From assembly GCF_000835495.1 (NCBI RefSeq), contig NW_015622543.1, forward strand, positions 5,754,619 through 5,818,618: DNA of 64,000 nt. Reading direction: 5' to 3'. This stretch comes from Cladophialophora immunda (lineage: Eukaryota; Ascomycota; Eurotiomycetes; Chaetothyriales; Herpotrichiellaceae). Below are positions 10,581 through 42,621 of the stretch, in pieces. The translations under genes and the position numbers were made by a program. Numbering within the stretch: position 1 is the stretch's first letter; every line of letters begins with the position of its first letter. The notes below the pieces were generated by a model. That model was not told where the DNA came from and did not search any database. It worked only from the letters and a program-made list of their open reading frames with translations.

Positions 10581-11300
10581 GCATTCAGTGCATGGCCTCT
10601 CTTTTTCGTGGTTGCAATTGGGATTCTCCAGACGCCACGTTCTTTGTGACCAAATTGTATCTTTCTGCGCGGACCATGTATAGCATCACACATCATCCAA
10701 AGAGGCCTCTCCGAGGGAACGGAACGTAGCCGCATACCTAAATAAACCCTCCACAAGGATTTCCTAGATTTTTGGCGAAAGGCCCCATCCTATCCGCAAA
10801 ATCAAGGTCGAAGAAGGCCACCTGCAGGGCGCTATCACGTAATAACCTGCAGGGGGCTACTGCGTTAGGAGCTATGGGACGAATTTGGGGGCCGGTTTCT
10901 AACGAGCCTGCCATAATGAGTAGAAGCCTTCTGATTGTCAAACTTGCAACCTTGCCACTTACTAAGAGCTCATAGTGTACCCCGCGAGCCCGCATTCATC
11001 AAAGCAGACCCATATTGTGCCCCTCTGACCGAGTTTCGACACAGGATGTTGTTGCTACACGAGTTATAGCAGGGATAACTAAAATCTTACCAATGCATCA
11101 TTTACCGGGAAGCAACCGCTGGGAAGCAACCGACGGGCCGCTTTCTTCACCTCTTATATCCGAACCCTTCATGTCCAGGGAATAGCACAAGAATTGAAGG
11201 CTTGTTTTCGATCACGATACGCATCCTGGGTATTCAAGGCCTGTGTTTCTCCCAAGGTTACCTTCGTAAGAGGCCTTCGAGCGGCTCTCATTCTTCGAAA
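10581..11300. other. Intergenic before the STAND gene
   Basis: A short direct repeat of about 14 bp (GGGAAGCAACCG-type) lies near 11108-11133. CCTGCAGGG-type repeats occur near 10822-10855. No supported gene. Confidence 0.4.
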
Positions 11301-14300
11301 ATGACGGAAACTTCTCTAGCAGCACTCTGGGAGAATGCTATCTGCGAATATGAGAAGAGTATTGGCCAGCCTTTGTTCAATTCTGACTTGCAATGTGCTC
11401 CCGTAAACTTCCAAGACACCAATGGACGAAGCCTTCAAGCGTTTCTCGAAGCCCTTCACGTAAATCAAGACCAGTTCACGGCTCACCGAAATGAAAAGCG
11501 CAGAGTTGTTTCAGCCTTCCGCAAATGTATCCTCCCGCTGCACTTCATCCTGGATATTGCAGATCGAGGCCTTCAAGCAACACCCGCGGCACCGCTCAGT
11601 GCGCTTTTCTTTGCAGTCAAACATATCTTGAATACATGTGAAAGGGTTAGTAACGCATACGATGCTGTGGAAGAGTTGTTCCAACGAGTAGCCGCTGTTA
11701 CGTGCTCCCTCGACGGTTACAAGGACAGCTCTCTGATCGGCACACATCAGACAGTCGTTGTTGAGGTGTTGTCATGTCTTCTGAAAATCGTCGGAGTAGC
11801 ACAGTCCAGACTGGTCAAACCGTCAAGACTACGCCAATTTGGAAGGTCACTGTTTCAGAACGATGAAAGCATCAATGAAGCCCTTGCAGAGCTGGAGAGA
11901 CGGGTGCACGATGAGCTGGGCTATGTCGTTCGCCTGAATTTTGGGATGACGCAGCGAATGAGCGAAACGACCCTCAGCATACATAAACAAGTCCTCGAAA
12001 TCAGGCAGGAGATTCTGAGATCTAGAGCAAATGGAGAATTTTTGGATGCCAGGACAGATCTTGTCGAAAAACTCAAGAATGAGTCGTGGGAAGAATTGCG
12101 AAATCATCATCGAAAAAGTGCCGATGCCATTGCCGCCACCACGGGGATGTGGATCCAGAATGATTCGATGTTTGCAACGTGGGAGAACGGCAATGGTTCA
12201 CTGCTTTGGATTTTTGGTCGCCCGGGAGTTGGCAAAACGGTTCTTGCTGCTGCCACGGTCGAAACTCTCAAGAACAAATATTCAAGGCACGCTGATAATG
12301 GTTCAGTGAGGCCTACAGGCTACATGTATTTCAAGGAGGGCCAACCCAAACTCCAGAATCTGAGCGATATGTTGCTGGCTGTTGCACTGCAAATTGCGAA
12401 GCAAGATCAGCGGTTTTATGACCATCTGGTGGAGACCGTCAGAACTTATCCTGACATTCTTGGGAAGGCAGCGTCAGCGGAGTCTTTATGGGATCGCCTG
12501 TTCCTATCCTATGACCCTCTCTTGGAAGATCATGAAGAGGCTGGTGGACTGATCTACATAATCATTGATGGGCTTGACGAGGCCAACGACGAAGCAAAGC
12601 ATTCCTTGTTGACTTGCTTGAGAAGGCTTCTTGCCTCCCAGCCCAATCATGAAAGAATATCCATCCAGGTGGCCGTCTTTGCACGGCCAGAAATTCGAAA
12701 TCTCCTTGACAATACTGATGCCGCCTTCCAAGGAAAGGAAAAGATCATCGACATCACCGAAGACCAGACGAAGCAGGATATTCGTGTCTACGTACGGCAC
12801 CACACAAAGGCCATCGCCGCTGTCAGAATGATCCGGAAGATGGAACCGGAGCAATCTCAAGCCTTCGAGGCCTTCATCGAAAACAGCATAGTGACACGTT
12901 CGCAGGGAATGTTCTTATGGGCCAAATTAGTCATTGACCAGATTCGAGACAGCCCTTCTGCGGAAGCGGTTGAAGAAGCCCTCAATGATGCCCCTTCCGG
13001 GTTGATGGACATGATTCATTTGGTATTTCTCAGGTTGAACCACGAAAGCGACTTCAGGACCCAGTACCTGATGCACTTACTCGCCTGGGTCCTTTGTTGT
13101 CGCCGTCCGCTGACAATTGCCGAGCTTCATGTCTGCCTTCATGAAACACTTGGCCAGCATTTCATAACTATCTCTGATGACCTGACAAAAAGGTACTCCA
13201 GTCTTTTCGACGTCATACGGCAGTCAAATGGTGACGATGCTTCGAAAACGATAAAGTCAACGTCTTCCTCCAACAGAGAAGAATCCGAAGACGATTTAGA
13301 CTCTGTCGAAAGTGACGATGGCGAACTAGCGACCGGCTACACGCCATCAAGGCCTTCATTTAAGCAGTTTAGTTTCAAAAGAATCAGCGTCCATGCAAAT
13401 AATGGAATATTTGACGAATGGCACCGCAGCACGGTCACCTTTGCTCATGCAAGAATTCGCGACTATCTTGTCCAAGAAGGCAACCCCTTGACCAAGAAAT
13501 GGAATGATTGTCGAGTGGTTCCGGGACAGATTGATCATTTCAAGATGCAAATGGTGCAGGCTCTGCTTGACCTCGCCATGAAGCCCACTGCCCAAAAATA
13601 CGGCGTACATCTTCTCAGACAGTATGCGGCAGATAATTGCGTGTCTCATCTGGTGGAGATTGACCTTGGTGCAATGCCAGAAGACCTTTGTGGTCAAGTT
13701 GGTGCCAAACTAGCCTCGCTATGTTTTGACGGCAAGATGTTCTACGATATACAGAATGGTCTATGGCAAACTACGATTGATTCTTGGCTATTGGACCGAA
13801 AGAAACCCGATATCGTCCGTGCATTGATCGCAAAGGGAATCCACTGCCTCAGCACCGAAAATCCTGAGATTCGCCCGTGGGCAATGCAGGCGGTCGACTC
13901 CGCCAGAGTTCTCCTACAGCCTTTGATCAAAGAATGTGCCCGTATCTGGCTGGCGAAAAGGTCGTGGGATGACTTGGATTGGTTCAACAAGTGCGACGGA
14001 GAAACATGGGTATTGCTTGCGTATGAATTTTTGGTAAGCAAAGTGGTCTGTCGCCACACCGGCCGTTGCTGACGTTTAGTAGACTCCAAAAGGAGACAAT
14101 ATTGGCCCTGTCAGCATACTTAAAGGAACACGACGAGTCGGACGCATTACCCTGGATCTGATTGAGCAAATCGCCAGAAGTCAGAACTTAGAAGAAGACG
14201 AATATTGGTGTACCGGTGTTGCCTGGACGATGATGGATGGAGGAGATCCTAGGCACACCCGAAGAGCCATCGAATATTTCCAAAAGGCAATCACTCTAGC

Positions 14301-27491: not shown

Positions 27492-29291
27492 ATGTCTCAA
27501 TCAGCCGCTGCTGCTCAGCCCCTTTATCTACCGCTTCTCGAAGGCGAGGTGATAAGGCTGGTAGATCTGCAACCAGGAATCGGGGAGGATCCTGTCTCGC
27601 TACGACTTTTGATCGCCGAATTAGGCCATCATCCTGACTACGAGGCCATCTCATATGTCTGGGGTGACCCAGGCCAAACCGTTCCGGTCCTTTGCAACGG
27701 AAGACCTCTCGCTATCACCGTCAGTCTCAATGCAGTCTTCAAGAGAGTTAGATACCCAGACCGATCCCGTCTCCTTTGGGCCGACGCTTTATGCATCAAC
27801 CAATGGCACGACGATGAACGAAGCCATCACGTGGCCTTTATGGGGAAAGTGTACCGGTGGGCGAAAAGAGTGCTTGTGCATTTTGGGGACGATCTAAATG
27901 GAGACGCAGTAAACGTCTCTTCTCTTGTGAAAGAATATGCTACTTTGATCTCGAGATACAAGTCGGTACATGACATGCCAATTCTGTTAGCTGAGGATCC
28001 TGCTCTTGATGATCCAAGGTGGAAAACACTATCGAGATTTCACCACTTACCATGGTGGACCAGAGCATGGGTTGTTCAGGAGGTCGGGCTTGCTCGAGAA
28101 CCGATCTGTTTATACGGGACTGAAGAGTTTGATTATCGTGATCTAATGAGGCTCGCTGTTTGGACAACAAGATGTGCGCCACACCTGGAATTCCGACATG
28201 ACGTTTCTTTCGCTACAGTCCATACGGACTGGCTCGATTGGTCGCCCAATTGGCAAGAAACCTCTCCGGATCCCAGCCAGACTTTCCTAGGACTGATGAA
28301 CCACTCGCGGTGGCTATCATGTCGGTTGAAGAAGGACCACATCTATGCCCTTCTGGGACATCCATTGGCTCATGTTGAGTCGAGCGAGGAGTTGATTGTT
28401 CAGCCAGCCTACAACAAGACTGACGAAGACGTTTACCTTGAGCTCGGGAAGACCTTGATAAGAGACCATGGCCTTCGTGTCCTATCTCCGGTAGACCACA
28501 CAGAAGAAACCTGCAAGAGCCCTTTGGTTCCTTCCTGGCTGCCCTTTTACCACAATGTTGAGCTCACCGCATGCAATTTTGGCGTATTCCCAGATTTCTG
28601 GTACAAGGCGTCGGGGGAGTCTGAGAGAGAAGTCGTCATTGGTGCCGACGACTTGCATGTTCGAGGCTTGCTCGTTGACATTGTGCGGCATTCAACTCAG
28701 TTTACTGAGCGGGACTTGGAAGATCTTGGAAGGCTTTCGAAGGAGAGCCCTGCTGTGGACCATCAGGATGGACTGCTGGACCACATCATGGCCGAAGCCC
28801 TTGCTGAGGCAAGTGGCCAGGCCTACGATGCGGACGACAAAATCACGGCCCTAAGCTTGACACTTTGTGCTGGGTTGTCGAGGTACCGATGCGCGGAAGA
28901 TGATCTTGATCAGCACTGCAAGGACTTTGCTGCCTACTACAAGGTTCGGAAAGGGCTACAAAACGAGGCTGATTGCCCTCCGTGGATGCTACGCGATCAA
29001 GCCACTGGAGACTATGAGAAGTACTTGACCGACATGAAGCTGGTATGTGAAGGAAGAAGCTTCATCTTGACCGAGAAGGGTCGTTTTGGTTTGGGGCCAC
29101 TGATCGCGTCGCCCGGAGACATCTGCTGCATTCTTTTTGGCGCTACTATACCTTTCATCCTGCGGAGGACGGAGTCCGAAGGGTATTTCAAGCTTGTAGG
29201 CGAGGCCTATCTGCAGGGGCTGATGCGTGGAGAGGCGCTCGGCCAGAGCCCAGCAAGTAGCTGTGAAGAGCAGACCTTCATCATCTGCTAG
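27492..29291 (+). CDS. HET-domain protein
   Basis: A single-exon, 599-residue protein with an N-terminal heterokaryon-incompatibility (HET) domain: IRLVDLQPG, YEAISYVWGD, then SRLLWADALCINQ and AFMGKVYRWAKRVLVHFGD. The HET domain is TIR-like, and its activation causes cell death after fusion of unlike hyphae. The C-terminal 400 residues are of the usual variable type, with WTRAWVVQEV and LGHP...VQPAYNKT followed by the late GDICCILFGATIPFILR strand pair. No ankyrin or NACHT partner is fused. The STAND gene lies 12 kb to the left; both belong to recognition-type families, but proximity alone does not link them. Confidence 0.9.
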   Translation: MSQSAAAAQPLYLPLLEGEVIRLVDLQPGIGEDPVSLRLLIAELGHHPDYEAISYVWGDPGQTVPVLCNGRPLAITVSLNAVFKRVRYPDRSRLLWADALCINQWHDDERSHHVAFMGKVYRWAKRVLVHFGDDLNGDAVNVSSLVKEYATLISRYKSVHDMPILLAEDPALDDPRWKTLSRFHHLPWWTRAWVVQEVGLAREPICLYGTEEFDYRDLMRLAVWTTRCAPHLEFRHDVSFATVHTDWLDWSPNWQETSPDPSQTFLGLMNHSRWLSCRLKKDHIYALLGHPLAHVESSEELIVQPAYNKTDEDVYLELGKTLIRDHGLRVLSPVDHTEETCKSPLVPSWLPFYHNVELTACNFGVFPDFWYKASGESEREVVIGADDLHVRGLLVDIVRHSTQFTERDLEDLGRLSKESPAVDHQDGLLDHIMAEALAEASGQAYDADDKITALSLTLCAGLSRYRCAEDDLDQHCKDFAAYYKVRKGLQNEADCPPWMLRDQATGDYEKYLTDMKLVCEGRSFILTEKGRFGLGPLIASPGDICCILFGATIPFILRRTESEGYFKLVGEAYLQGLMRGEALGQSPASSCEEQTFIIC

Positions 29292-31320: not shown

Positions 31321-33050
31321 TCACAGCATTGCCTTGGGCATGTACTTCATCGCCTGCCGCACACCAAGATCCGCCAAAATCTCCTCCGTCCCTCCAAGAA
31401 TGGCATCGAACTTGTACGTGCGATGGAACATCTCGACATTCCTGCCCATGCCAGTGGTTGTGATACCCCGTCCCCCGAAGATATTGACGGCGTCGTCGGC
31501 GATCTCGTGGGCTGCGCGGGTGGCAAACATCTTGAAGAGCCCGATGGGGCCAGCCAAATGTCGGTTTTGCTCCTCCTGGGTCATGTTGCACATTTGGTAG
31601 GTGATGTTCTCGAGGTAGTTTTGGATGGCTTCGGCGTAAGCGATCATTCTGGCAAGTCTGGAAACACACACACAACGCATGTTAGCAAGGGTGGGAAGCA
31701 AAGAAAGAGAGGGAATAGATTCATACTTTTGTCTGATCACTGGTTCCTCGATCAATCTCTTCCCAAATACCCTCCGCTGGTTTGCCCACTTGATGCAATC
31801 CTCTACGATCATCCGGCTCGATCGAACGCTGAAGGTCGTGATCATCCACCGTTCGTGGTTGAAGTTCGTCATTATCACCCTGAATCCTTGATTCTCCACG
31901 CCGAGAAGATTCTCGACGGGCACTTTCACATTGTCGAACTTGATGAACGCGGTCCCGGCGGTTGTGGAATAGCTCGTCTTGATCTGGGTGGTCTCGACCC
32001 CTTCCTGTCTTTCGATGAGCAGCACAGAGAAACCCTTTTCGGTCTTGACGCCTGTGACGAAATAATCACAGAAGACTCCGTTGGTAATCCATTTTTTGGT
32101 GCCTGACACAAAGTATTAGAAGGAGGACGCAGACAGACGATCAAATGCGCATCTGGGGCTTACCATTGACAACGTAGTGCGTTCCGTCAGGGCTCTTGAC
32201 GGCAGTGGTCTTCATACCAGCCACATCCGACCCGGCAAATGCCTCGGAGATGGCTAGACAGATCTTCTTCTTGCCTGACAAGCATTCTTCGGCCACTCGC
32301 TTTCGAACATGGGGCTTTGCATGGTATAGGACAGCTGGTAAGCTGATGATCATGCCGCCCAGGTTGCCGTCGTTGAAGGACCGAGTACCAGTTCGACAGA
32401 GCTCCTGGGTGATGATCATCTCGTGGAAGTAATCGAATTCTTCCGGCGTCACAGCGCCATTCATCAAGTTGAGTCCTTTGAGGTGAGGCCCGGGTCCCAT
32501 GCGCATTGCATTCATTCCAAGGCGTCTGGATAATAATACATTGTTAGCTCATGCTGGAAGCGAGGACCCGAGATGTACGGAGTACATACCCCATCTCCTC
32601 GATAGTTGCGTCAGAAATCCTCTTTCCGCTGGTCTCCTTTTCCTGGGCTTCAGGAGTTAGAACCGTATCGACCCATACTCGCATTGCCCGCTGCAGCCGC
32701 CGATGGCTCTCCTTGAAGTAGGGGCTCTTGAATTGTGGTGTCAACCAGGTAGGCTCTCCATAAGGCACCAGACTGAGATCCCCGGGCTTTGGATATATGA
32801 CCTGGGGCTTCTCGCCCTTGACCGTGCCAATGCATAACGACTTCTCATACTTCTGCAGGACTTCCAATCGGTGCAGATTGAAGAAGTCGACTGTTGCGTC
32901 AAGCCCTCCCACTTGCTCCAGCACCGTCGAGCCCCCGGGATGGGCATCGGCAAAGTCGGTCAAGTCGTAGACCTTGGAGTCGATGATACACCATAGGCTG
33001 TCGGCGGTGTTATTCTGCGACACCTCGTCCCTGGAGATTTCTCGGCTCAT
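31321..33050 (-). CDS. Cytochrome b5-fused acyl-CoA dehydrogenase
   Basis: A predicted 511-residue flavoenzyme. Exons: 32590-33050, 32164-32525, 31727-32102 and 31321-31657. The first about 80 residues form a cytochrome b5 heme domain (VYDLTDFADAHPGGSTVLEQ, with the HPGG heme ligand, and the second ligand in the LHRLEVLQKY helix). The rest is acyl-CoA dehydrogenase: ITQELCRTGTRSFND, CLAISEAFAGSDVAGM (FAD/substrate loop), KKWITNG, RWMITTFSVRSSRM, then the C-terminal helices with NIFGGRGITTTGMGRNVE and the catalytic-region ILGGTEEIL. Fused b5-ACAD proteins are known in fungi; I infer that the b5 domain takes electrons from the flavin. The C-terminus KAML is only a weak PTS1. It is divergent from the nitronate monooxygenase across a 575-bp promoter. 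Confidence 0.9.
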
Positions 33051-38935: not shown

Positions 38936-39719
38936 ATGCGTCCAGAAGGAGGAAAGCTGACCATCTATGTGGATTGTGGTATGTGTACCATACACCCACT
39001 CGCCATTTGTGCGAAGCTCACCTGCCGTCGCCAGTATCCCCGTACTCGTGGTTTGGCTTCACCAACATAATCCGCCACCGGCCACTCCTGAATGCATACG
39101 GTGTATCTGTGGACATAATCCCTTTCTTCTTGGGTGCCGCCCGTGATGGCGTGGGCAACCCTTTCACGCCAACACCCAAAGCCAAGGAGGCCTTTGCAAA
39201 GCAAGACTCGGAAATGACTGGGGAGCTGCTTGGGCTGAAGGTCGTCCGGCCCAAGGAATTTCCCATCCTGTCTCTTTTTGTGAGTTCCCCCGGTCTCAAA
39301 TATGGACCCGCGATTAACGGCATGGGTAGGCGGTCCGCGTGGCGACATGGATCAAAGACCACTATCCGCCAGAGAAGTTTGAAGCTGCCTTTCCAGCTTT
39401 CAGCACGGCGTATTGGAGTAATGGCATCAATATCTCCAAGCCCGAAGGAATCATCAAAGCTCTGGAAGGCATCTTCCCCGAAGAGGAAATCAAGGAGATC
39501 ATGAAGAAGGCAGTGACACCCGAGAACAAGCAACGGGTCATTGACCTGACCATGGGAGCCGGTGCATTTGGGGCGCCATGGATCGTGGCCGTGAACTCAG
39601 AAGGGCAACGGAGGGACTGGTTTGGAAATGATCGATGGGATCAGGTGTTTTATCATCTGGCAGTCCCGTTCACCCCAGTGAAGATCGTTCCACCCGAGGA
39701 AGCAAAGGCGAAGTTGTGA
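38936..39719 (+). CDS. Kappa-class glutathione transferase / DsbA-like, PTS1 (AKL)
   Basis: A predicted 225-residue thioredoxin-fold protein. Exons: 38936-38978, 39035-39279 and 39330-39719. The start gives LTIYVDCVSPYSWFGF, the GSTK/HCCA-isomerase N-terminal strand with the Ser that activates glutathione. Next come LLNAYGVSVDIIPFFLG, a variable helical insert, and the closing AGAFGAPWIVAV (cis-Pro loop) with WFGNDRWDQVFYHL, all typical. The tail EAKAKL reads as a PTS1 variant (AKL). Human GSTK1 is also peroxisomal, which is established. With the ligase, nitronate monooxygenase and SDR it fits a detoxifying or isomerising role inside peroxisomes; that link is inference. Confidence 0.88.
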
Positions 39720-40257: not shown

Positions 40258-40680
40258 GATGAGGCTATCGTTTTACCTCTGCGTCCCATGTCAAGAGCGT
40301 CGAGAACCACTTCCAGCTGACCAAGACGAGTTATATTCCCCTTCCGCTCTAGAGGCCGGGGGGGAGTGAGTGACAACGCCTCCATCACACCCACTACCAC
40401 GACCCTGACCAACGTCTACACGAATCGCTACCAGGCCCAGCAGCCCATGACCCTCCTTATCACCAGAACCAAGGAGCTTCTCGAGGACGCTGTCGACCAA
40501 TCCTCCTCCGCACGTGATTGGGCGTCTCGCCTCATCACTCATGCTGACTCACCTCCTGAGATATTCCCGTTTTCCAAATCCGCCCAGGAACTGCGCAAGT
40601 CCCATCTTTATCTTTTGCAATATCGCATATTTCTCCAGCAATTCAGGAAGCCTGAAGGACCCCCTTCCAGTCTCTGGTAG
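40258..40680 (+). CDS. Small protein of unknown function, stop inside the tRNA gene
   Basis: Codons from about 40366 to 40680 show strong C-ending bias, as in real genes here (for example TNVYTNRYQAQQPMTLL and LRKSHLYLLQYRIFLQQF). The reading frame has no ATG of its own. An ATG-led frame (40258) meets it at a run of seven G (40358-40364) and would be continuous only if that run had one more G, so either a homopolymer error, a frameshift or an unseen upstream exon is involved. The protein would be 105-141 residues, mostly helical after a Thr-rich start, with no domain I recognise. Its TAG stop (40678-40680) is nucleotides 8-10 of the tRNA-Asp gene that follows. Confidence 0.35.
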
Positions 40681-40802
40681 TTCAGTGGTAGAATACCGGC
40701 TTGTCACGCCGGTGGCCGAGGTTGTAAGTTGCTCTGTTGCAAAATATCAATTCACGCGAAGATGAGAGCTGATTATCTGTATAGCAATTCCTCGCCAGAG
40801 AG
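40671..40802 (+). tRNA. tRNA-Asp(GTC) interrupted in the T-loop by a spliceosomal-type intron
   Basis: The 5' part (40671-40723) has acceptor strand TCTCTGG, a D-arm with A box TAGTTCAGTGG, and anticodon stem CCGGC/GCCGG around loop TTGTCAC (anticodon GTC, 40703-40705). It then has the T-stem strand CGAGG and the first two T-loop bases TT. A 61-nt insert follows (40724-40784), beginning GTAAGT, with CTGAT 12 nt before its 3' end, and ending ATAG. The 3' part (40785-40801) supplies CAATT, CCTCG and acceptor CCAGAGA, with G at the discriminator position (40802), the eukaryotic tRNA-Asp identity base. With the insert removed every stem pairs perfectly, and the B box GGTTCAATTCC is restored. Canonical nuclear tRNA introns lie after position 37; this one is near 55/56. 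The junction cannot be shifted by even one base. Confidence 0.85.
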
Positions 40803-40812
40803 TCTATCTTCC

Positions 40813-40819
40813 TTTTTTT
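40813..40819 (+). terminator. RNA polymerase III terminator (T7)
   Basis: A run of seven T starts 10 nt after the tRNA discriminator base, the usual distance and form for a Pol III terminator. It supports the tRNA as a former or present Pol III gene. Confidence 0.7.
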
Positions 40820-41031: not shown

Positions 41032-42621
41032 CTACCACCCGCTCACTTCGTCCTCGCCCTCCAGAGTTTGCCGTTGCAGTCTCTTTGCAACGGCCTCGAC
41101 AGTCTTCCACACCCTAATGAGGTTCCCTCCAGCTGCCTTCGCGGCATCTGAATCACTGACGCCCAGCCTCAACAGCTCCGCAATCAGATCAGGATATTTA
41201 TCCACCCCTTCCAACCCCTTGGGGGTCAGCTCACCCATCCCGTCAAAGTCACTGCCCAAACCGACATAATCATATCCAATCTTCTCGCCCACATACATGA
41301 CGTGTCTCGCCACCTGATGCAGGGTGTTGTTCTTCTCGTAAAACTCCGGCAACACGCTCTCGCTTGCGGGAGGCAAGCATGAGATGAACCCGGGACTAAA
41401 ATTGATCATCACCAAGGATTTCGTCTCCTTGACCAGGTCCAGAATATCGTCGTGGACATTTCTAGGGTGTGGACATAACGCAAATGCCGAGGAGTGGGAG
41501 TATATGACGGGCGCCGCCGAGGTCTTGTTGCTCAACACGGCTTTCTGGGTCCAGTACGAGGTATGCGAGATGTCGACGAGCATCCCAAGTCGGTTCATCT
41601 CGCGGATCACGTCGCGACCAGCCGAGGTCAACCCGCCGCGATGGTAAGGAGCCACTACGGTGCCATTCCGCGATGAAATCAAGGCAGCGTCGGCAAACGC
41701 ATTGTGACAATTCCAGGTCAGTGTCGCTGCGCGCACGCCCAACGCATGGTACAGCCGCAGTGTGGACAAGGGCGCAGACTGCGGGATCTGGTGCAGGCCT
41801 TCGATACTGATCGGCGAGATCAGACGCCGCGAGCTGTGGAAATTCGACAACGCCACCTCGAGCGGCGAAGTCGCGGATGTGAAGTTGCCGGTATACTCCC
41901 CCTGCAAGCGACGGATCAAGTCGATCTGGGATAATGTGTGCGACACGGCCGTGGCGTACTGCTCGTCCGAAAAGTCCTCGCTGGCATTCTCGGGACACAC
42001 CACGAAGGCGCTCCAAAACGCGCCGCCCACTCGCCCTTTCCGCAGCCGGGGCAAATCGACGTTCAGCTCCATATCTCCATTCTCAAACTTGTCCCGAAAC
42101 TCCTTGGTGTGCAGTTTGTTCTTGTACGCGCCGCGGATGAAGATCGCCAGGTCGTTGTGGCCGTCGATCAAGGGCGTGTGGTGGAGGATGGCCAGCGCTC
42201 GCTCCTCGATCGTTTGGCCGGGTTTCGGGACGGGCACGGGTCTCGGGGTAGGAATGGGGTCGCTGCCACCCACGTCGGGACTCAGGAAGGCGATCACGAG
42301 GCCGAAAAAGACGACGACGAAGAAAATGGACGCAATCTTGTTCAAGGCGGATTTGGTGGATTCAAACGACAGGGACCGGGCGTCGTCCTCTTCTGCGCCA
42401 TCTCCGTACCCCTCCTCGGGCTGGATCCCTTCATTCCATTGCCTGGGAGACTCCTTATAGTCTGCTGCAGGTTGTATGCCTTCGTAGCCCCTGTATTTGG
42501 AGAAGCCATAGCCTTGTATCTCGGGCGCCGGTTCGTTCTGGGGTAGCAGAGGGTCAAGCTCGGATTTGGAAGACATTGGGCGGTAGGGGAGAGAAGGACC
42601 TGCTCTATGTAAGTTGGACAA
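41032..42621 (-). CDS. Membrane dipeptidase (M19, renal dipeptidase family)
   Basis: A single-exon, 529-residue zinc dipeptidase with a single N-terminal membrane anchor. The disordered acidic N-terminal tail precedes one hydrophobic helix (IASIFFVVVFFGLVIAFL), then a Pro-rich stalk and the catalytic domain, so it is probably type II with the enzyme in the lumen or outside. Metal and active-site elements: LIDGHNDLA (His-x-Asp), the bridging Glu in SIEGLHQI, VDISHTS, VIYSHSSAFALCPHPRN and GLGSDFDGM. Several NxS/T sequons (NFT, NGT, NKT, NNT) support secretion-pathway exposure. An in-frame ATG 45 nt downstream (MSSKSELD) is an alternative start. Confidence 0.92.
   Translation of the reverse strand: MSNLHRAGPSLPYRPMSSKSELDPLLPQNEPAPEIQGYGFSKYRGYEGIQPAADYKESPRQWNEGIQPEEGYGDGAEEDDARSLSFESTKSALNKIASIFFVVVFFGLVIAFLSPDVGGSDPIPTPRPVPVPKPGQTIEERALAILHHTPLIDGHNDLAIFIRGAYKNKLHTKEFRDKFENGDMELNVDLPRLRKGRVGGAFWSAFVVCPENASEDFSDEQYATAVSHTLSQIDLIRRLQGEYTGNFTSATSPLEVALSNFHSSRRLISPISIEGLHQIPQSAPLSTLRLYHALGVRAATLTWNCHNAFADAALISSRNGTVVAPYHRGGLTSAGRDVIREMNRLGMLVDISHTSYWTQKAVLSNKTSAAPVIYSHSSAFALCPHPRNVHDDILDLVKETKSLVMINFSPGFISCLPPASESVLPEFYEKNNTLHQVARHVMYVGEKIGYDYVGLGSDFDGMGELTPKGLEGVDKYPDLIAELLRLGVSDSDAAKAAGGNLIRVWKTVEAVAKRLQRQTLEGEDEVSGW

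Follow-up and report, generated by a model that had tools for sequence, protein, structure and literature searches.

Textbook nuclear tRNA introns occupy position 37/38, where a dedicated endonuclease cuts them out. Meanwhile, spliceosomal introns are widespread in the rDNA of ascomycetes, and rRNA genes are multi-copy genes transcribed by RNA polymerase (Pol) I. For instance, excerpts of PMC11782384 name spliceosomal introns in the rDNA of Mycoarachis inversa and an mRNA intron in the 18S rDNA of a deuteromycete, the latter from a 1993 Curr Genet paper. In addition, the references of PMC10484740 include Tani and Ohshima (1989) on an mRNA-type intron within the fission-yeast U6 snRNA gene. Furthermore, ectopic and multiple tRNA introns are known from archaea, Cyanidioschyzon merolae, and the Guillardia nucleomorph, and according to excerpts of PMC3978253, they are mostly cut by the endonuclease via a bulge-helix-bulge (BHB) fold.

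The tRNA-Asp gene described here was found in a 64-kb window (the whole stretch of DNA that was analysed, C3:5754619-5818618) of an assembly of 42.2 Mb in 39 contigs. It shares with fission-yeast U6 what appears to be a spliceosomal intron in a non-coding RNA gene of the Pol III type. However, U6 is one RNA, itself spliceosomal, for which reverse splicing is easily pictured, whereas many tRNAs are concerned in the present fungus; the one U6 match found in its genome is full length and intronless. The rDNA introns are likewise spliceosomal and interrupt fungal genes for structural RNAs, but they reside in a multi-copy Pol I gene, whereas for the tRNA isoacceptors of the present fungus mostly one gene each was found. 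As in archaea, Cyanidioschyzon, and Guillardia, many tRNA positions are used and a gene may have several introns, but the introns of the present fungus have GT-AG borders and a branch motif, and BHB folds occur among them at chance level. Canonical 37/38 introns co-occur in 15/16 of the split genes, but position and grammar differ. Finally, introners also have GT-AG borders and look newly gained, whereas the present introns form no family of alike copies.

We propose that U2-type spliceosomal introns, at least 19 in at least 16 genes, reside in Pol III tRNA genes of this fungus and are removed by the spliceosome; judged from the sequence, we consider this very probable. In the open-licence full-text literature (titles and abstract starts of the papers listed), we found no published report of spliceosomal introns in tRNA genes.

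Structure of the tRNA-Asp gene in the window

The tRNA-Asp(GUC) gene occupies window positions 40671-40802 on the forward strand, on which all of its features given below are located. The original prediction stated that its cloverleaf is complete only without 40724-40784 and that the junction cannot be shifted by one base, and both statements held. After removal of the insert, the acceptor stem pairs at 7/7, the D stem at 4/4 (one G-U), the anticodon stem at 5/5, and the T stem at 5/5 positions, that is, all 21 pairs are intact in the joined sequence. In a scan of any start with a removed length of 61 ± 8 nt, a single top-scoring junction was obtained, the GT-AG at 40724/40784. The joined tRNA has the anticodon GUC, the T-loop TTCAATT, and the discriminator G. 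The minimum free energy (MFE) of the joined 71-mer is -29.5 kcal/mol (z -3.8; equalled by 0/200 shuffles), and its MFE fold deviates from the cloverleaf near the D arm; for the unjoined 132-mer, z is -1.4 and 18/200 shuffles were equal. As a chance control, 12,954 GT-AG excisions were scored over the window (both strands, acceptor-like ends, one excision, 37/38 intron disallowed), and the tRNA-Asp locus alone reached 38 or more, with a score of 56.

Exon 1 (40671-40723) holds nucleotides 1-55, namely the 5′ strand of the acceptor stem, the D arm, the anticodon arm, the 5′ strand of the T stem, and T54 and T55. Exon 2 (40785-40802) holds nucleotides 56-73, with the remainder of the T-loop, the 3′ strands of the T and acceptor stems, and the discriminator G. 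The 61-nt intron between them (40724-40784) divides the T-loop at 55/56. It starts with the 5′ splice site GTAAGT (40724-40729) and ends with the 3′ splice site TAG (40782-40784); the branch-point-like CTGAT was found at 40769-40773 just as originally described, with 12 nt after its A (40772) to the intron end. A search of the window with Rfam (gathering score) gave no group I or group II intron, and the insert is merely 61 nt. Unlike the 15 other split genes described below, the window gene has no 37/38 intron.

Within these exons, the A-box region (40678-40688) is intact, and the B box is parted by the intron into GGTT (40720-40723) and CAATTCC (40785-40791). A T7 run of the Pol III terminator type follows at 40813-40819, and a weak TATA-like stretch, CATATTT (40626-40632), lies about 40 nt upstream; it fails the TATA rule used in the census. 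ARAGORN and Rfam (gathering score) detected no tRNA over the window, as would be expected from the split T-arm of this gene.

The gene sits between a same-strand DSBA-like gene, whose last frame ends at 39719, and a convergent gene for a membrane dipeptidase (peptidase M19; 41032-42621, reverse strand). The product of the latter shares 88-90% identity with proteins from Fonsecaea erecta, F. pedrosoi, F. multimorphosa, and Cladophialophora bantiana. Judged by this one gene, the organism is probably a black fungus of the Chaetothyriales, whose family would be the Herpotrichiellaceae.

Census of tRNA genes and grammar of their introns

At least 42 tRNA genes were found in the genome, 26 without and 16 with GT-AG introns outside 37/38, and the 16 split genes contain 19 such introns. 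These numbers are lower bounds, with 63 of 935 first-look candidates scored and one pattern search giving first places only. Searching the genome for tRNAs with Rfam yielded 26 matches (24 above the cut-off), ARAGORN on fetched loci added one tRNA gene, and D-arm and T-arm patterns supplied further loci for parsing. The Pro-AGG, Leu-UAA, Gln, and Gly genes and the second Asn intron were initially spotted by eye, and their folds were confirmed by scoring. Canonical 37/38 introns are present in 15/16 split genes and in 20/26 of the others, with 6/26 of the others having none.

The positions of the GT-AG introns vary (numbering is approximate wherever the D-loop varies). Besides the window gene, the D arm is interrupted in Asp L057 (3′ strand of the D stem) and, in the D-loop, in Glu-CUC (L053), Leu-UAG (L067), and Ile-AAU (L079). 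Three genes have two GT-AG introns each: Pro-AGG (L065) at 3/4 and 32/33, Asn (L060) in the 3′ strand of the D stem and at 42/43, and Leu-CAG (L062) at 9/10 and 29/30. The remaining introns are located at 7/8 in Ala-AGC (L077), 8/9 in Pro-CGG (L063), 43/44 in Glu-UUC (L053), 52/53 in Leu-UAA (L068), 53/54 in Pro-UGG (L055), 57/58 in Gln-CUG (L071), and 59/60 in Gly-UCC (L075), and in the variable region in Arg-UCU (L050). None of the 19 is at 37/38.

These introns are 49-69 nt long (median 55), and all end with AG. They start with GTRNG, the exceptions being GTAAAT and GTTAGT, and 19/19 contain YTRAY, its A lying 10-15 nt before the intron end. The motif is CTAAC in 14/19, where 2000 shuffled sets gave a mean of 0.98 and a maximum of 5; the window intron has CTGAT instead. 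By comparison, the 35 canonical 37/38 introns are 8-57 nt long (median 20), and neither GT..AG borders (0/35) nor CTAAC (0/35) were found among them. Thus, the original prediction of a spliceosomal intron in a tRNA gene is now strongly supported by the insert together with 18 alike introns in 15 other genes; its anatomy stood, but the gene is no single odd case, the 15 further split genes being spread genome-wide.

It should be noted that the parsers sought GT-AG, and this selection accounts in part for how common it is among odd inserts; one parsing round also demanded the branch motif, and two others did not. For 10/19 introns, a single product is fixed by the fold alone, and 10/10 of these are compatible with GT-AG. 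For the other 9/19, alternative placements fold equally or better. They fold equally in Arg, Glu-UUC, Glu-CUC, Leu-UAG, Ile, and Gly. The GT-AG fold scores 48 against a best of 52 in Ala L077 (one mismatch remains), 55 against 56 for the second Asn intron, and 50 against 51 in Asp L057, where the junction is fixed by the paralogue L058.

Three mRNA introns of an acyl-CoA dehydrogenase gene in the window (reverse strand) have splice sites like those of the tRNA-gene introns. They comprise a 64-nt intron with GTATGT...GCTAAC...CAG (32526-32589), a 61-nt intron with GTAAGC...CTAAT...CAG (32103-32163), and a 69-nt intron with GTATGA...CAG (31658-31726), in which CTAAC has its A 24 nt from the end; exactly the 23 codons of 31658-31726 are absent from homologues. 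All three were located by homologue alignment, and their precise borders were picked using splice motifs. The distance from the branch A to the intron end is 13-24 nt in these mRNA introns versus 10-15 nt in the tRNA-gene introns. Other mRNA introns, collected by joining open reading frames, were mostly doubtful, and only the three homologue-placed ones were kept. The gene itself extends from about 31324 to 32942, and its opening portion matches N-terminal sequence of a longer homologue from fungi (by eye, like cytochrome b5).

The original prediction also called for other tRNA-Asp genes to be counted, and at least two others (L057 and L058) exist. Their mature bases are identical at 72/72 positions, and a 53-nt GT-AG intron is present in L057 and absent from L058. 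In addition, their 37/38 introns differ (15 and 21 nt), and no similarity was detected in their flanks beyond the T run. Constraint on the mature tRNA appears to be the best explanation of this identity; it is possible that gene conversion keeps the two genes alike instead. A second comparison is offered by tRNA-Ile, in which L079 and L037 agree at 68/74 positions and only L079 has the intron.

Moreover, the genes found for Pro (AGG, UGG, and CGG), Glu (two), and Asn (one) are all split. When the joined Pro, Glu, Asn, Gln-CUG, and both Asp sequences were used in a DNA search, 9 candidate stretches were obtained and all scored; their 17 pieces all lay in known genes, and for Pro, Glu, Asn, and Gln no copy without the split was seen. 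The sensitivity of this search was limited, for it missed the 18-nt exon 2 of the window gene. In the D-arm pattern list, Pro and Glu were represented by a single gene each, and each of these is split; the further pattern matches L115-L117 (one with GGG at the anticodon place) were not tRNA genes on parsing. Were the split genes dead, codons for proline and glutamate would be unreadable as far as the census reaches. Removal of the GT-AG introns is probably essential for at least the proline and glutamate tRNAs. A Pro or Glu gene that is unsplit but unusual in sequence could exist, because genes that must exist went unfound in the census. Indeed, every census search came up without a gene for Lys, Phe, Tyr, Trp, His, Val(AAC), Gln(UUG), or Ser(GCU). 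These missing isoacceptor genes may be split in ways that the patterns miss. Nine yeast tRNAs used as genome queries for them gave no match, an empty answer that is uninformative.

Transcription, removal, and origin of the introns

Whatever the other genes are, the tRNA-Asp of the window could be a dead copy struck by an intron-like insertion, as the original prediction had allowed. Other tRNA-Asp genes exist, of which L058, lacking a GT-AG intron, could serve alone, and the window gene has a divided B box and a weak TATA-like stretch. However, neither its stems nor its terminator show decay: the 21 stem pairs and the T7 run are retained, and the B box is disrupted by the intron alone. The Asp identity elements (anticodon GUC, discriminator G, G10-U25, and C38) are all there, and the insert shows the complete intron grammar. 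Furthermore, the body agrees with the other tRNA-Asp at 48/72 aligned positions, so it has diverged while its pairing was preserved. We therefore regard a dead copy as unlikely, and likewise for the split class as a whole; it keeps some probability for the window gene, because another Asp gene without a GT-AG intron exists. Since other tRNA-Asp genes are present, the activity of the window gene is something that we infer, less surely than that of the split class.

The spliceosome normally acts on Pol II transcripts, and the A or B box is interrupted by GT-AG introns in several split genes. In addition, tRNA-Leu(UAA) (L068) has a T6 run within the intron at 37/38, a sequence expected to halt Pol III unless it is read through. 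It is therefore conceivable that Pol II transcribes the split genes, alone or within longer transcripts, and that splicing and then trimming yield the tRNA. This is close to the reading through Pol II that was originally suggested, and the transcription signals speak against it. A T5 or longer run within 60 nt downstream is present in 16/16 split and 26/26 other genes (3.9% of random places), it begins at most 16 nt downstream in all 16 split genes, and no T5 run is found inside any GT-AG intron (longest 4). The terminator counts are partly biased because TTTTT was demanded in the search that found some of the genes; nine split genes, the window gene among them, were found without this demand, and 9/9 have the run. 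Meanwhile, a TATA-like box 15-90 nt upstream occurs in 11/16 split genes and 15/26 others (4.5% of random places). The upstream frame at 40366-40680 (104 aa), the sole frame tested over the locus, gave neither a homologue (E ≤ 10) nor a match in Pfam. According to excerpts of PMC3978253, yeast tRNA genes that bear a TATA box can be transcribed in vitro without TFIIIC. Finally, fission-yeast U6 provides a case of splicing of a Pol III transcript. Taken with these points, Pol II transcription of the split genes seems decidedly unlikely.

The combination of Pol III and the spliceosome is favoured over Pol II because it is simpler and has the U6 precedent. In this scheme, Pol III would transcribe the split genes and terminate at the T run, and an upstream TATA-like box may compensate where the A or B box is interrupted. 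From the Pol III transcripts, the spliceosome would then excise the GT-AG introns with no switch to Pol II, and the tRNA splicing endonuclease would take out the separate 37/38 introns of 15/16 split genes. As for their origin, the introns were probably gained singly, for example via reverse splicing. The DNA itself shows the anatomy, grammar, and number of the introns and the identical mature sequence of the pair L057 and L058, whereas we infer Pol III transcription, spliceosomal removal, and the manner of intron gain.

Many apparently new introns in unusual places of one genome might also be copies of a mobile family, as the original prediction had considered. This did not hold up: the 61-nt window insert, the only one searched genome-wide, matched itself alone (E ≤ 10), and pairwise comparison of the 19 introns gave a top score of 24, within the range of 50 shuffled sets (mean of maxima 20.3, highest 26), which makes a mobile family very improbable. 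Least credible are ectopic tRNA introns cut by the endonuclease at a BHB, as known from other lineages in excerpts of PMC3978253 (archaea and Cyanidioschyzon), since a strict 4-bp central helix is possible in 1/19 introns (Arg-UCU) and in 6/19 with offsets of up to one base, near the chance level of randomly re-paired exons (means 0.5 and 4.1; 298/2000 sets reach 6), the window gene has 1/4 strict pairs, and the uniformity of GT-AG, the branch motif, and the narrow length range would be left without explanation.

With Pol III and the spliceosome as the preferred reading, it is rather likely that in this fungal lineage all Pro, Glu, and Asn tRNAs depend on the spliceosome as an essential enzyme of their maturation, mostly beside the tRNA endonuclease, and that split boxes are tolerated via TATA. 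If all of these tRNAs need the spliceosome, translation capacity would be tied directly to splicing capacity. The spliceosome would work on short Pol III transcripts at a large scale, and two RNA splicing systems would be linked, 16 of the 42 tRNA genes found being split by up to two such introns each. In addition, these genes would offer a natural set for the study of intron gain in structured RNAs, including an exact pair with and without the intron. Such genes are overlooked by tRNA finders, as the escape of the window gene from ARAGORN illustrates. Excerpts of published accounts give tRNA counts of 30 for F. erecta and 37 for F. monophora by ARAGORN, and of 51 for R. similis and 64 for E. 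dermatitidis by tRNAscan-SE. The variation among these relatives may reflect overlooked split genes.

Rejected loci and other observations

The loci L056, L059, L061, L064, L072-L074, L078, L081-L096, and L115-L134 were not accepted as tRNA genes and were excluded from the counts. When all of them but L056 were parsed again, they scored at most 31, versus 45-56 in the 16 split genes. Two of them, L083 and L089, have a T-arm-like sequence with T runs downstream, and a D-arm was not found; they are perhaps unusually split tRNA genes and perhaps chance. For tRNA-Asp, a pattern based on the anticodon arm matched 43 times, versus 37 times in the reversed control, and was useless beyond the window gene.

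A repeat that mimics a tRNA D-arm (TAGTTTAAGGGTAC...) is present at 8 places on C1, C2, and C3, some of them close to contig ends; the one copy that was read, L118, is not a tRNA gene. At L080 (G000:C7:3602000-3604000), tRNA-Glu genes with UUC and CUC anticodons lie about 0.7 kb apart, and their GT-AG introns differ from each other, as do the intron positions. Elsewhere in the window, 11202-14072 and 27492-29291 hold a gene for a fungal STAND protein (Goodbye and nephrocystin-3/NACHT-like domain) and a HET-domain gene, both of kinds typical of non-self recognition.
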